Assembly (NCBI GenBank): GCA_029976805.1
Contig: JAPOLY010000001.1
Span: 1-64,000, forward strand
Source of the DNA: a bacterium
GTDB taxonomy: Bacteria > Planctomycetota > UBA8108 > UBA1146
DNA: 64,000 bases
Reading direction: 5' to 3'
This document shows positions 40,420 through 47,998 of the stretch, piece by piece. The notes under the pieces are model-generated. The model was not told where the DNA came from. It worked only from the letters and a program-made list of their open reading frames with translations, and did not search any database. A program made the position numbers and the translations under genes. The first letter of the stretch is position 1. Each line of letters begins with the position of its first letter.

Positions 40420-43400
40420 ATGAGGTTCAACTTCAGAAACGCACTGTTCCTGCTCACTCTCGTTCTTGCCCCCTTCTGTGTTTCGATTTCTGCACAGGGG
40501 CAGGCACCGCAGGAAGATTCCCTTGTCCGGCATTACCATCCAGCCACGGGGAAACTCCATTTCCTGGGTGGGGTGAATCATTCCCCTCTGGGGCTTCCGA
40601 AAGGGGTCACTCCTGACCTTGAAGATCCCCTGCAGGCACTGCGTTCTTACGGGGCTGAGTTTGGAATCCGCCACCCGGAGGTTCAGCTTCAGTTGTTGCG
40701 TACAGAAAAGTGCAACGTGGGTCAGATCCATCACACTTTCCAGCAGGTTTACCGTGGAGTGGAAGTGTTGACCGGAAATATCAAGGTCCACTTGAAAGCG
40801 GATGGTACTCCTCTCTCCATCAATGGAGATTTTTACTCCGTACCCAAAAAATTGGAGATCGCTCCAAAGATTGGTTCTGAGCAGGCTTTGGAACTTGCCG
40901 CACGTGATTTGGGGCAAGAACTTCTGATTGAGACTGATCAGCCACGCCTCGTGATCGTCAACCCGGGTTGGTACGGCGATGATCCCATCGATCAGCCGGT
41001 CCTCGCTCATCATCTGGTCGCCGAGGGTGATGGAATGATGGCGAAGAACATTCTGGTCGACGCGAGAACAGGAGTGGTGCTCGATCACTGGCCCGCAGTT
41101 CACAGTGCCCTTCTCAGGGAAATCTATGACGGTGCCGGTGGAGGAGGCCTTCCGGGAACCCTTGCCAGAACCGAGGGATCTCCAGCCAGTGGAGATTTGG
41201 ATATCGACAACTCCTATGACACTTGCGGGGACCTCTATCGAGTTCTTTCCGATTCACTCGGAAGAGACAGCCTCGACGGGAATGGCGGCCCCATGATCAT
41301 CACCGCCAATTGGAGTAGCAACATTTGTCCCAACGCCATTTGGAACGGGACACAGGGTGCTTTCTGCAATGGGTTGGGAACGGATGACATCATTGCTCAT
41401 GAGTTGGCTCATGGCCTGACCCAGTTCACTGCAAACCTGATCTACCAAAACCAGTCTGGCCAATTGAACGAGGCCATGTCTGACATCTTTGGTGAGGTGA
41501 TTGACCTTTACAACGGAAACGCTTCCGTAGCCGGAACCCCCGGAGGAACTCCATGGCCAATCCCGGGTACCAGTGGATCGGGTCTCGATACCCCGAACAC
41601 ACCGCGTACCGGCTGCAGTGATGGATCGGCACGCTGGAGAATGGGAGAGGAATCTTCCATTGGTGCTATCCGCGACATGTTCTACCCGGAGTGTTTCAAT
41701 GATCCTCCGAGCACGACGGATCCGCTTTACAATCAGAATGCCTGCGGTCCCTTCGACAATGGAGGGGTCCATATCGGCAGTGGTGTTTTGAACCACTCCT
41801 TCGCCATGTTGGTGGATGGCAAGACCTACAACGGACAGACCATTACTCCGATTGGCATGACCAAGGCTACTGCGGTCTACTTCCGTGCTCTTTCAGTCTA
41901 CATGACGGAAGGAACGAGCTTCCCCCAGGCAGAGATTCATATCAATCAGGCCGCCGCTGATTTGATCAACACCAACCCCATCGATCCCCGCACAGGCGTG
42001 GGTGGAGGAGTTTTCACTCAGGCAGATGCCGACATCGTTGCCTCGGTGATGACTTCTGTGGGCATGTCCGAATTGGTCTGTGGTCAGGTTCCTCCGGGGC
42101 CCCCTCCTGCCAATGACAACTGCGACGCTGCTGTCCCGGTTTTCCTCGGACTGAATGACGTCGACAGCAACAATGCTACTACTGGTGGACCCGCACCCGA
42201 CGACAGCGTCTGCCCGGGCACCTTTATCGGTGATTGTGGCAATGATATCTGGTACAGCTACACCGCCCCTGAAAACGGGCTTTTGAGTGTGAGCCTTTGC
42301 AGTACCGTCAGTTGGGATACCGACCTGCAGATCTTCGACGGAAACTGTGGTGCCCTGAATCTGATCGCCTGCAACGGTGACTTTGGTGGTTGCTCCACTT
42401 TCACCTCGCAAGTAGATAACGTGCCCGTGATCGGCGGCAGTAACTACCTGATCCGGGTCTCCTCCTGGAGTGACGGAACCACTGGAACAGGTCAGATGGA
42501 TGTTTCCTTTGTTCCCGATTCCGGTCCAGGTGTTGAGAACTGCACCAACGGAGTGGACGACGACGGCGATGGTCTCGTCGATTGTGAAGACGCAGACTGC
42601 GCAACCAATCCCGTGTGCATTCCTCCCGCTGCGGGTGACGAGTGTATCAGTGCAGAAATCGCCTCCCTGGGAACCAATCCTTTCGACAGCACCAATGCCA
42701 CCACGGGAACTGATCCGATTCCGGATCCGGCGACCTGTAATCAGGGCTTGGGTGACATGCTGGGCGACATCTGGTTTGAGTATGTACCGACTGAGTCGGG
42801 TTCTCTCTTCGTGAGCACCTGCTCTCCCGGCAGTTTTGACACCGATCTTGTGGCTTACACCGGATCCTGTGCTTCCTTGCTTACTCTGGCATGCAATGGT
42901 GACGTGACACAAAACACCTCGCCGACCTGTCAGCAGTACTGGTCTGAAGTGACCATCGATGTGATTGCCGGTGAGACCTATTGGTTCCGCATCGGTGCAT
43001 GGGGAACTCCCCATCCTGGCAATGGTCTTCCCGGCCCCGGAGCGCTCATTCTTGATCTGACTCCTTCCGGACCGATCGAGAACTGCAGTAACGGATCCGA
43101 TGACGATGGAGATGGTCTCGCCGATTGTGAGGACCCCGATTGCCTGACCGACCCTGCCTGTGTCCCGGCGATTCCCGGTGACGAATGTGATACGGCTGTC
43201 GTCGCAGTTCTCGGTTCCAACGCCATCGACACGACGGGTGCAACGACAGGAACCGATCCCATCGATGACTCGAACTGTACGGGCACCTTCCTGGGCGAGT
43301 TTGTTCAGGATGTCTGGTACCAGTTCACTCCTTCGAGCACCGGTGAGCATGTGATCGCCACTTGTGACACCGTCAACTTTGATTCTGACATTCTGGTTTA

Positions 43401-45228
43401 CAGTGGCAGTTGTGGTGCACTGGCACCGATCGCCTGTAATGGTGACGGAACCGGGTGCGGCGGTCTTACGAGCAGTGTTTCTGCCAACCTGAATGCCGGC
43501 GAAACGGTTCTGATTCGCGTTGGAGGCTGGAATGCCGCTGCCGTCGGTACCGGAACCCTGGAAATCAGTTCCGTGGCTCCTCCTCCGCCCCCAGAAAACT
43601 GCACCAACGGTGTGGATGACGATCAGGACGGATTGACCGACTGTGAAGATCCCGATTGTTTTGCCGATCCTGATTGCAACTGTCTGCCCATTTCCAATCT
43701 TCTTTGCATTCAGGGCAGCGGAACCAGCGTCAATCTCAGCTGGAGCAATGGCGAAGCCTATCAGGAGATCTCTGTCATGAGAGGTGGGGCCCAGATTGCC
43801 GTGCTTCCAGGCAGCAGCAGCAGTTATGTTGACTCTGCGGCTCCGTTGGGCAACCAGACCTATTCGTTGGTCCCGAGCTGTACCCCGATTCAGCAAGCAC
43901 CTATGGAGAACTGCAGTGTGGATGTGATCCAGACGATTGGCTTCATGTTCAGTGCAGGAGACGTCAATGGATCCTACAGCGCTTCAGGTGCTGCCTTTGA
44001 ATCGGAAATCTCCCTGATGGAGTTGGCAAGCAACCCGGGATTCCCGACCGATACCGCCGGGTTCTCTTTCGGTCTCGCACACGACAGTACTCTCTTTGAG
44101 GCGACGGGTGCACAAGCGGTTGGTCCCCTGGCTGCTCTGGATGGAGGAGCTGGCCCGGCCTTCTTCGACACATCCGTATTTGCGAATGGTGTCGGCATCG
44201 GCTGCGTCTACGACTTCAGTCTTTCACAGTCGATCCAGTTCACTTCTGCAACCGGTATCGTGTCCGTCGCATATGCGGCTTTGCCGGGTACGCTGTCTGG
44301 AGCGAGTGGAACCGTGACCTCCAGTCTGGATTTCGTCCAGACTCTGGGAACTCCTCCTGTGGAAATGATTGTTTCAACAGCTGCCGGGTCTGCGGTTCCT
44401 GCTGGGGGTAACTCCGGTTCCGTCTCCCTGAATCCGAGCGGGTTTGTCATGACCGCCGTCGATCAGTCGGTGGACTATCCGGAATCCACGGGTGAAGCCT
44501 CTGTCACAGTCTCGGTCACCCTTGAGGAGGATCCTGGTAATACTGGATTCCCGAATGAAACTCAGGCGTTCTCATTCGGATTGGTCCATGATCCAGCCGT
44601 ACTGACGGGTCAAGGAATCAATGCTGCCTCGATTCTCTCTGCATTGAACGGCAACACGGGTCCCGATTTCTTCGATGTGAACAGCTTCGCAGACGGCATG
44701 ACCGTGGGTTGCGTTTACACCTTTGTCGGTACTGACGTTCTGACCTTTGCCACTGCCACAGAATTGGTGACCGTGGATTACTCAACGGTCGCTGCAGGAC
44801 TGATCGGGGCTACGACTCCAACGGAAACCCAGTTGCAGTTTTCACAGACTCTGGGAACACCTCCGGTGGAACTGGTCGTGGTGGTCGGTGCAGCCTCCCA
44901 GGGAGTTCAGGGTGAGACTGGTACCGTGACGCTGACCCCGGTTTCAGGTACAGGATTCGTCCGCGCAGACATTAATGACGATGCGGTCGTCAATCTAGCT
45001 GACGCAGTTCAGTTGCTGAATGCTCTCTTCCTTGGAGGAGTGACCAACTGTGATGACGCTGCTGACACCAACGATGATGAACTGAAGAATATCGCCGATG
45101 CGGTATATCTTCTGAGTTATCTCTTTACCAGTGGTCCAGACATTCCTGAACCTGGTGGAAATGGTAGCTGTGGTGCTGATCCGGTTGGTGATGCCCTTGA
45201 TTGTGCAGAGTACAACTCGTGCCCATAA
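40420..45228 (+). CDS. Secreted M4/thermolysin-like metallopeptidase with FTP region, three PPC-like repeats, two cohesin-like repeats and dockerin-like C-terminus
   Basis: FTP-like region; DIIAHELAHGLTQFTANLIYQNQSGQLNEAMSDIFGEVID (HExxH + NExxSD); three 'DECxxA..xLGxNxxDxTxATTG...DIWYxYTPxxxG' repeats with ENCTNGVDDDGDGLVDCEDADC linkers; FVRADINDDAVVNLADAVQLLNALF C-term. Confidence 0.88.
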   Translation: MRFNFRNALFLLTLVLAPFCVSISAQGQAPQEDSLVRHYHPATGKLHFLGGVNHSPLGLPKGVTPDLEDPLQALRSYGAEFGIRHPEVQLQLLRTEKCNVGQIHHTFQQVYRGVEVLTGNIKVHLKADGTPLSINGDFYSVPKKLEIAPKIGSEQALELAARDLGQELLIETDQPRLVIVNPGWYGDDPIDQPVLAHHLVAEGDGMMAKNILVDARTGVVLDHWPAVHSALLREIYDGAGGGGLPGTLARTEGSPASGDLDIDNSYDTCGDLYRVLSDSLGRDSLDGNGGPMIITANWSSNICPNAIWNGTQGAFCNGLGTDDIIAHELAHGLTQFTANLIYQNQSGQLNEAMSDIFGEVIDLYNGNASVAGTPGGTPWPIPGTSGSGLDTPNTPRTGCSDGSARWRMGEESSIGAIRDMFYPECFNDPPSTTDPLYNQNACGPFDNGGVHIGSGVLNHSFAMLVDGKTYNGQTITPIGMTKATAVYFRALSVYMTEGTSFPQAEIHINQAAADLINTNPIDPRTGVGGGVFTQADADIVASVMTSVGMSELVCGQVPPGPPPANDNCDAAVPVFLGLNDVDSNNATTGGPAPDDSVCPGTFIGDCGNDIWYSYTAPENGLLSVSLCSTVSWDTDLQIFDGNCGALNLIACNGDFGGCSTFTSQVDNVPVIGGSNYLIRVSSWSDGTTGTGQMDVSFVPDSGPGVENCTNGVDDDGDGLVDCEDADCATNPVCIPPAAGDECISAEIASLGTNPFDSTNATTGTDPIPDPATCNQGLGDMLGDIWFEYVPTESGSLFVSTCSPGSFDTDLVAYTGSCASLLTLACNGDVTQNTSPTCQQYWSEVTIDVIAGETYWFRIGAWGTPHPGNGLPGPGALILDLTPSGPIENCSNGSDDDGDGLADCEDPDCLTDPACVPAIPGDECDTAVVAVLGSNAIDTTGATTGTDPIDDSNCTGTFLGEFVQDVWYQFTPSSTGEHVIATCDTVNFDSDILVYSGSCGALAPIACNGDGTGCGGLTSSVSANLNAGETVLIRVGGWNAAAVGTGTLEISSVAPPPPPENCTNGVDDDQDGLTDCEDPDCFADPDCNCLPISNLLCIQGSGTSVNLSWSNGEAYQEISVMRGGAQIAVLPGSSSSYVDSAAPLGNQTYSLVPSCTPIQQAPMENCSVDVIQTIGFMFSAGDVNGSYSASGAAFESEISLMELASNPGFPTDTAGFSFGLAHDSTLFEATGAQAVGPLAALDGGAGPAFFDTSVFANGVGIGCVYDFSLSQSIQFTSATGIVSVAYAALPGTLSGASGTVTSSLDFVQTLGTPPVEMIVSTAAGSAVPAGGNSGSVSLNPSGFVMTAVDQSVDYPESTGEASVTVSVTLEEDPGNTGFPNETQAFSFGLVHDPAVLTGQGINAASILSALNGNTGPDFFDVNSFADGMTVGCVYTFVGTDVLTFATATELVTVDYSTVAAGLIGATTPTETQLQFSQTLGTPPVELVVVVGAASQGVQGETGTVTLTPVSGTGFVRADINDDAVVNLADAVQLLNALFLGGVTNCDDAADTNDDELKNIADAVYLLSYLFTSGPDIPEPGGNGSCGADPVGDALDCAEYNSCP

Positions 45229-46984: not shown

Positions 46985-47998
46985 TTACCGTGGCGGAATC
47001 ATGGGATCCGTCACTTCTATCTCCGTATCCCATTTCTTGTTGAGACGCCGACCTTTCAAAACATGTCTGCGGTAGTTCTTCTCAGAGATTCTTGAGGACT
47101 GAAGAGCGGTCGCCAATTCGGACTCGATTTTTTGATCATAAGCAGACTCGGGAATATGTGAGATCACACTGGAAGTGAGTCCGAATTCTCCAGGTCTGAC
47201 GATGGAAATCCCCGGTTCCTTTGCCGGTAATCCAATTTGCCTGGCTTCTTTTGCAGAATTGGTCAATCCCCAGGCAAGTCTTCCACGGAACGGTTCTTTC
47301 CATGCAAGTAATCGTAATTTGTTCAGCACGGCTTCCGAGACTCGATCTGCAACCACAAGCAATTGCCGATCGCAGGAGGCGACATTCAGGGATCTGCGCA
47401 GATCCTTGCAGGTAGGAAGAGGAGGAAGTCCGGAGGTTACGGATTTGGCTGAATATTTCTGGGAGATGGCATGCATCTCAAGGGCAAGAATTGAAGATTC
47501 CCAACCCACCGATCCTCCAAAGACCATCTGGGGAGAGCGACCTGATTTGCTGAGGCGTGTTTTTCCATCGGGAGCGAGGATCACAAAGACGGTGTTTTCC
47601 AACTCTCCGGTTCTTCCCCGATACAGGCTTTTGAGGAACTTGCCTTCGGTGGCATCTTCGTAGGTGGCGAGTCGGGCACAGACAAATCGCTCTGAGAGTT
47701 TGATCACTTCCGGGTCGGACCAGTAACTCTGGTCCATTTCCTGTTTGCCCGGTCACCAAACTCCAGGGATTCCCCTGCACTGTGGGGCAGCCGAAAGGAG
47801 CAGAATTGGCTTTCCGGTTCTCTCGGCTTCGGCTTTCGCTGCCTGCCAGGTTCCGATCCATGCAATGCTTTTGGGGTACTGGAAAGTGCTCTCGACCGAA
47901 GGAGGAGATTTCGGCGTTGCTTTGGGGTCGTCATGATTCAACCCCACGGCAGTTGTCCACAGGGTCGTAAAGAGGCTGATTGTCAGCAGATTGAACAT
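46985..47998 (-). CDS. Candidate selenoprotein: secreted thioredoxin-like protein with one in-frame TGA (47753-47755)
   Basis: ORFs 47753-47998 and 46985-47737 lie in the same frame separated only by TGA: ...GKPILLLSAAPQCRGIPGVW-[TGA]-PGKQEMDQSYWSDPEVIKLSERFVCARLATYED... Signal peptide MFNLLTISLFTTLWTTAVG; GGAG upstream of ATG; hairpin immediately after the TGA. Confidence 0.55.
47710..47752 (-). promoter_or_regulatory. bSECIS-like hairpin immediately downstream of in-frame UGA
   Basis: mRNA: UGA CCGGG-CAAACAGGAAAU-GGACCAG(AGUUA)CUGGUCC-GA-CCCGG: perfect 7-bp apical stem plus 5-bp lower stem; apical loop with G at position 2 starts 25 nt after UGA. Confidence 0.5.

Follow-up and report, generated by a model that had tools for sequence, protein, structure and literature searches.

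A putative exported selenoprotein family with a thioredoxin-like domain, apparently undescribed, in Planctomycetota

The UGA codon at positions 47753-47755 of the window, by which we mean the whole 64,000-nucleotide stretch of DNA that was analysed, almost certainly encodes selenocysteine (Sec), making the gene around it a bacterial selenoprotein gene. The basis for this is conservation of the UGA among homologues, a covarying hairpin, the Sec machinery, and alignment of the Sec position with the catalytic Cys or Sec of relatives; from these we infer that Sec is actually incorporated. The gene would specify a putative exported selenoprotein in which a Thioredoxin_7-type domain is accompanied by another conserved region at the C-terminal end. 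A selenoprotein had been proposed here in an earlier, sequence-only reading, and every named check that was run supported it.

The gene occupies 46985..47998 on the minus strand. ORF analysis bore out the earlier claim that two minus-strand ORFs, 47998-47753 (81 aa) and the remainder down to 46985, lie in the same frame with only the TGA at 47753-47755 between them. Read through, they give a 337-aa product with Sec at residue 82 in the motif W-U-P-G-K, starting at an ATG (47998-47996) that has a Shine-Dalgarno-like GGAG upstream of it and ending at a TAA stop (46987-46985). The earliest start codon in the downstream ORF is the ATG at 47737, which lies within the thioredoxin (Trx) domain, as had also been claimed. 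The N-terminus carries a hydrophobic segment, MFNLLTISLFTTLWTTAVG (47940..47998, minus strand), which we judged from the sequence to be a probable export signal. A hydrophobic leader is likewise seen at the N-terminus of most homologues whose start is clear, and the 337-aa product is probably exported.

We searched for homologues with stops read through, in 100 related genomes and then in 395 Planctomycetota genomes; such a search would score Cys forms no worse than TGA forms. Relatives were present in 50 of the 395 genomes, about 1 in 8 of those sampled, and came from 15 families. TGA was found at the identical site in 53/53 full-length homologues, whose identity went down to about 33% and whose coding sequence is conserved over the entire length of the protein. 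A Cys or other sense codon at the Sec82 site was seen in none of these 53 from the 395 genomes, and UAA or UAG was never seen there in the family. The matches without TGA were contig-end fragments (G007, G270 and G219:C1), a match in G081, and distant DsbD-like or other Trx proteins. The G081 homologue (L026/L028, G081:C33:18953-19899) is split over two frames at about residue 95, an apparent frameshift or assembly error, and the TGA is still there. Divergent paralogues from the window's class (L025 and L027) read WUKGKQ, with the upstream Cys moved to -9 or -11, and one genome, G024, has both a WUKGKQ-like divergent copy and a WUPGKQ copy. A scan of the contig collection (genome_contigs) returned three near relatives only, and a search of the plasmid collection for the family gave zero matches.

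An otherwise intact ORF split by a single TGA is also what would be seen if the gene were a nonsense-mutated pseudogene or contained a sequencing error, the UGA being a recent lesion or an artefact. However, the same TGA recurs in homologues from separate assemblies and from all 15 families. In addition, dN among the four closest relatives was well below dS on either side of the TGA (downstream, for example, 0.035 vs 0.293), indicating that purifying selection acts on both sides of the UGA, and invariant residues flank it on both sides (G79, U82, C107, R109, E114, N135, R154, G273 and W323). Because the TGA is conserved, dN is below dS and invariant residues stand on both sides, we consider a pseudogene or a sequencing error to be excluded for practical purposes, its probability being negligible.

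The mRNA that follows the UGA folds as the sequence-only reading had described (47710..47752, minus strand), with an MFE of -19.2 kcal/mol (z = -3.05; 2 of 200 shuffles were as stable). The apical part of this computed fold, the hairpin GGACCAGA-GUU-ACUGGUCC (47717..47735, minus strand; 7-8 bp), is conserved in relatives with compensatory changes, whereas the lower CCGGG/CCCGG stem is confined to the nearest relatives and was rejected as part of the SECIS element. The position of the hairpin is fixed, with 25 nt from the UGA to the loop G, and the loop is GUU in most copies. Across 52 distinct sequences 93.3% of the hairpin cells were paired, and in five of the eight pairs both partners had changed in a compensatory way. 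The hairpin's covariation score was 0.400, compared with 0.178 (sd 0.017) for shuffles and 0.06-0.12 for slid partners. It is chiefly this covariation, together with the constancy of the TGA in the 53 homologues, that rules out chance.

The codons that face each other in the stem change together: Q-CAG stands opposite W-TGG (C-G, A-U), R-AGG opposite L-CTG (A-U, G-C), and E-GAG opposite F-TTC (G-U, A-U). Arg opposite Trp is encoded by CGN, restoring the C-G pair (2 cases), while Arg opposite Leu is AGA or AGG in 20/22. Overall, Arg90 is AGA or AGG in 20/24, against 145/1138 (13%) of Arg codons across the family genes, and Ser91 is AGT in 45/45, against 105/1038 (10%) of Ser codons. This skew in synonymous codons at Arg90 and Ser91 indicates selection on the RNA, and the protein code does not account for the pairing.

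The published rules for bacterial SECIS (bSECIS) elements call for a hairpin within 16-37 nt, a G in the first two loop positions, and an MFE of -7.5 kcal/mol or lower (PMC13188914, Fig. 2A). The family hairpin conforms to them, a few distant members having less clear folds, so that the loop G and the UGA-to-loop spacing, which had been called bSECIS-compatible, fit the published model. We noticed no notable difference from that model; spacing and sequence are unusually fixed in this family. An Rfam search with the hairpin region gave a chance match only.

The machinery for Sec was then sought by name, as the sequence-only reading had suggested, and all of selA, selB, selC and selD were found in the gene's own genome: selA (528 bits), selD and the tRNA-Sec gene are grouped on contig C61, while C157 carries selB. 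The first three appear to form a cluster, and the selD (L039, G000:C61:11104-12027) has an in-frame TGA of its own, i.e. it encodes a Sec-containing SelD. Among the 50 genomes with a homologue, 48 have selA, compared with 197 of the 345 others (Fisher p=3.8e-9, uncorrected for relatedness). The two homologue genomes without a selA match are incomplete assemblies, and selB scored above its cut-off in both.

A conserved hairpin 3' of a stop codon could also stimulate programmed read-through or a regulated truncation, in which an ordinary amino acid would be inserted at the UGA. Against this, the codon is only ever UGA and never UAA or UAG, the homologue genomes possess Sec machinery, relatives have a catalytic Cys or Sec at the aligned position, and the hairpin obeys the bSECIS rules; we consider ordinary read-through very improbable. 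Under the Sec reading, which we prefer, the hairpin just 3' of the UGA would recruit SelB and Sec-tRNA-Sec, and the UGA would be decoded as Sec82.

Residues 46-111 (47666..47863, minus strand) form a Thioredoxin_7-like region (PF13899, E=1.9e-5; 25.1 bits vs a cut-off of 27), no Pfam model scoring above its cut-off for this protein, and 36 of 42 homologues matched PF13899 at E<=0.01, the best at 1.3e-7. The family motif is GxW-U-P-G-[KY], in which the +3 position, that of the second Cys of CxxC, is mostly Lys or Tyr. When the homologues were checked for TGA or Cys at the site, TGA was found in the family and the first Cys of CxxC in distant DsbD-like relatives, TWCQKCHEMD aligning over VWUPGKQEMD. 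This alignment suggests that Sec82 holds the site of the nucleophilic first CxxC Cys, with the usual second Cys missing. The Sec/Cys pair that supports Sec82 is formed with distant DsbD-like domains, as no Cys form of the family was found in the 395 genomes. In VPGUxxT proteins, their own Sec aligns with U82 and their VPG with the family's [IV]PG.

Two cysteines could serve as the partner of Sec82. Cys74 (47777..47779, minus strand) lies in an extended loop eight residues before the Sec and is conserved in 51/53 homologues, the other two having a Cys at -9 or -11 instead. Cys107 (47678..47680, minus strand), in FVCxRLxTYE, is present in 53/53 and is also invariant in alignment A2. Thus, of the C-x7-U redox motif proposed earlier, the Cys at -8 proved to be conserved, and the redox pair is a candidate, Cys107 being invariant. 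We rather favour Cys74 as the residue that would resolve the selenenyl intermediate; Cys107 is possibly the resolving Cys, with less likelihood than Cys74. The thioredoxin site would then have been rebuilt as Cys-(loop)-W-Sec-P-G-[Lys/Tyr], placing the resolving thiol before the catalytic selenol, not after it, and the relocated Cys amounts to a testable prediction on selenol chemistry in a thioredoxin fold.

An exported, Sec-dependent thiol-oxidoreductase function is probable for this protein, which would most likely act outside the cytoplasm to reduce a substrate of the disulfide or peroxide type; the Cys partner, the substrate and the compartment are what we infer from the sequence comparisons. 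A profile search of the PDB gave nothing significant (TXNDC12 at E=0.33), and AlphaFold2, run on the window protein and three near relatives, gave a mean pLDDT of 36 and no usable model. The gene neighbours (metallophosphoesterase, UDP-GlcNAc 2-epimerase and others) are shared only within the window's taxonomic family, and none is shared phylum-wide or favours a particular substrate.

We compared the family with known selenoproteins using NCBIfam release 20.0 (June 2026), in which the whole-protein cut-offs are 275 bits for NF041383 and 300 bits for NF041199. No NCBIfam model reached its cut-off among 42 members, the best being NF041199 (E=2.4e-5) and NF041383 (E=0.0012). The 337-aa product scored 13.3 bits against NF041199 (Trx7/PDZ), below 300, and gave no match to its PDZ C-terminal part. 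An inventory of 119 families from May 2026 (PMC13188914), compared by name, domain and Sec motif, held no WUPGK or PF13899 entry, and a text search of the literature consulted found no paper containing WUPGK. The suspicion that the motif is not that of a described Trx selenoprotein was thus upheld, and relative to NCBIfam, this inventory and the literature text, the family, as sampled within Planctomycetota, is apparently undescribed.

The family could nevertheless be a divergent branch of the described VPGUxxT or Trx7/PDZ selenoproteins, a question of classification only that is compatible with the selenoprotein claim. The Trx domains are homologous (hhalign E=1.5e-11 for VPGUxxT type 2 and 2.6e-7 for Trx7/PDZ). 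Like the VPGUxxT families (NF041383, type 2; NF041382, type 1), the present family has a Thioredoxin_7-type domain, a VPG before the redox site and an aligned Sec. However, planctomycete VPGUxxT members combine UxxC with a C-terminal MsrA-like domain, whereas the present family has W-U-P-G-[KY] without their +3 Cys, an extended loop with the Cys at -8, and a different C-terminal region that matches neither an MsrA-like nor a PDZ domain. Trx7/PDZ proteins, which are common in Planctomycetota, likewise have a Thioredoxin_7-type domain and a Sec that lies within the redox motif or close to it, but their motif is [CU]xx[CU]xxC, followed by a PDZ-type C-terminal part, and both the Sec context and the downstream region differ. 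The Thioredoxin_7 (PF13899) and DsbD-like C-terminal Trx domains probably belong to the same fold family, the first Cys of their WCxxC aligning with Sec82; they have a CxxC dithiol where the present family has UxxK/Y and a Cys shifted upstream. Given these differences and scores far below the NCBIfam cut-offs for all members, membership in a known family is unlikely, and we favour a separate one.

Cys homologues exist for nearly all selenoproteins (PMC13188914). A Sec-only family is therefore unusual, and its form would make it poorly visible to methods that use Cys/Sec pairs; searches built on such pairs would miss it. The UGA also makes standard gene calling split the gene in two. The family is absent from the curated models and the inventory examined, and yet about 1 in 8 of the genomes sampled from this major environmental phylum carry it. 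We lean slightly toward a broader picture, in which an exported Sec-only family with the rebuilt site extends across Planctomycetota and belongs to a wider, uncatalogued W-U-P set that includes a WUPAAE-type group.

This WUPAAE-type group is a second, apparently uncatalogued, Trx-like selenoprotein group (L117:2493-3569, plus strand, and L130-L143) with the motif G[CG]WUPAAEVLRxGP. TGA was present in 12/12 of its longest homologue matches, most of them with a downstream hairpin, from several Planctomycetota families. It had no NCBIfam match at cut-off, only a weak one to Thioredox_DsbH. The L117 ORF (GCW-UGA-PAAEVLRAGP) adjoins a VPGUxxT gene. The planctomycete NF041383 (VPGUxxT type 2) proteins at L108-L117 are fusions of a Trx_7 domain with an MsrA-like domain, and several have a second in-frame TGA within an MsrA-type motif (GMTUFW). 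The window itself also encodes, at 40420-45228 on the plus strand, a 1602-aa protein that we judged by eye to be secreted and to have a thermolysin-like HExxH motif (HELAHG) and C-terminal dockerin-like repeats.
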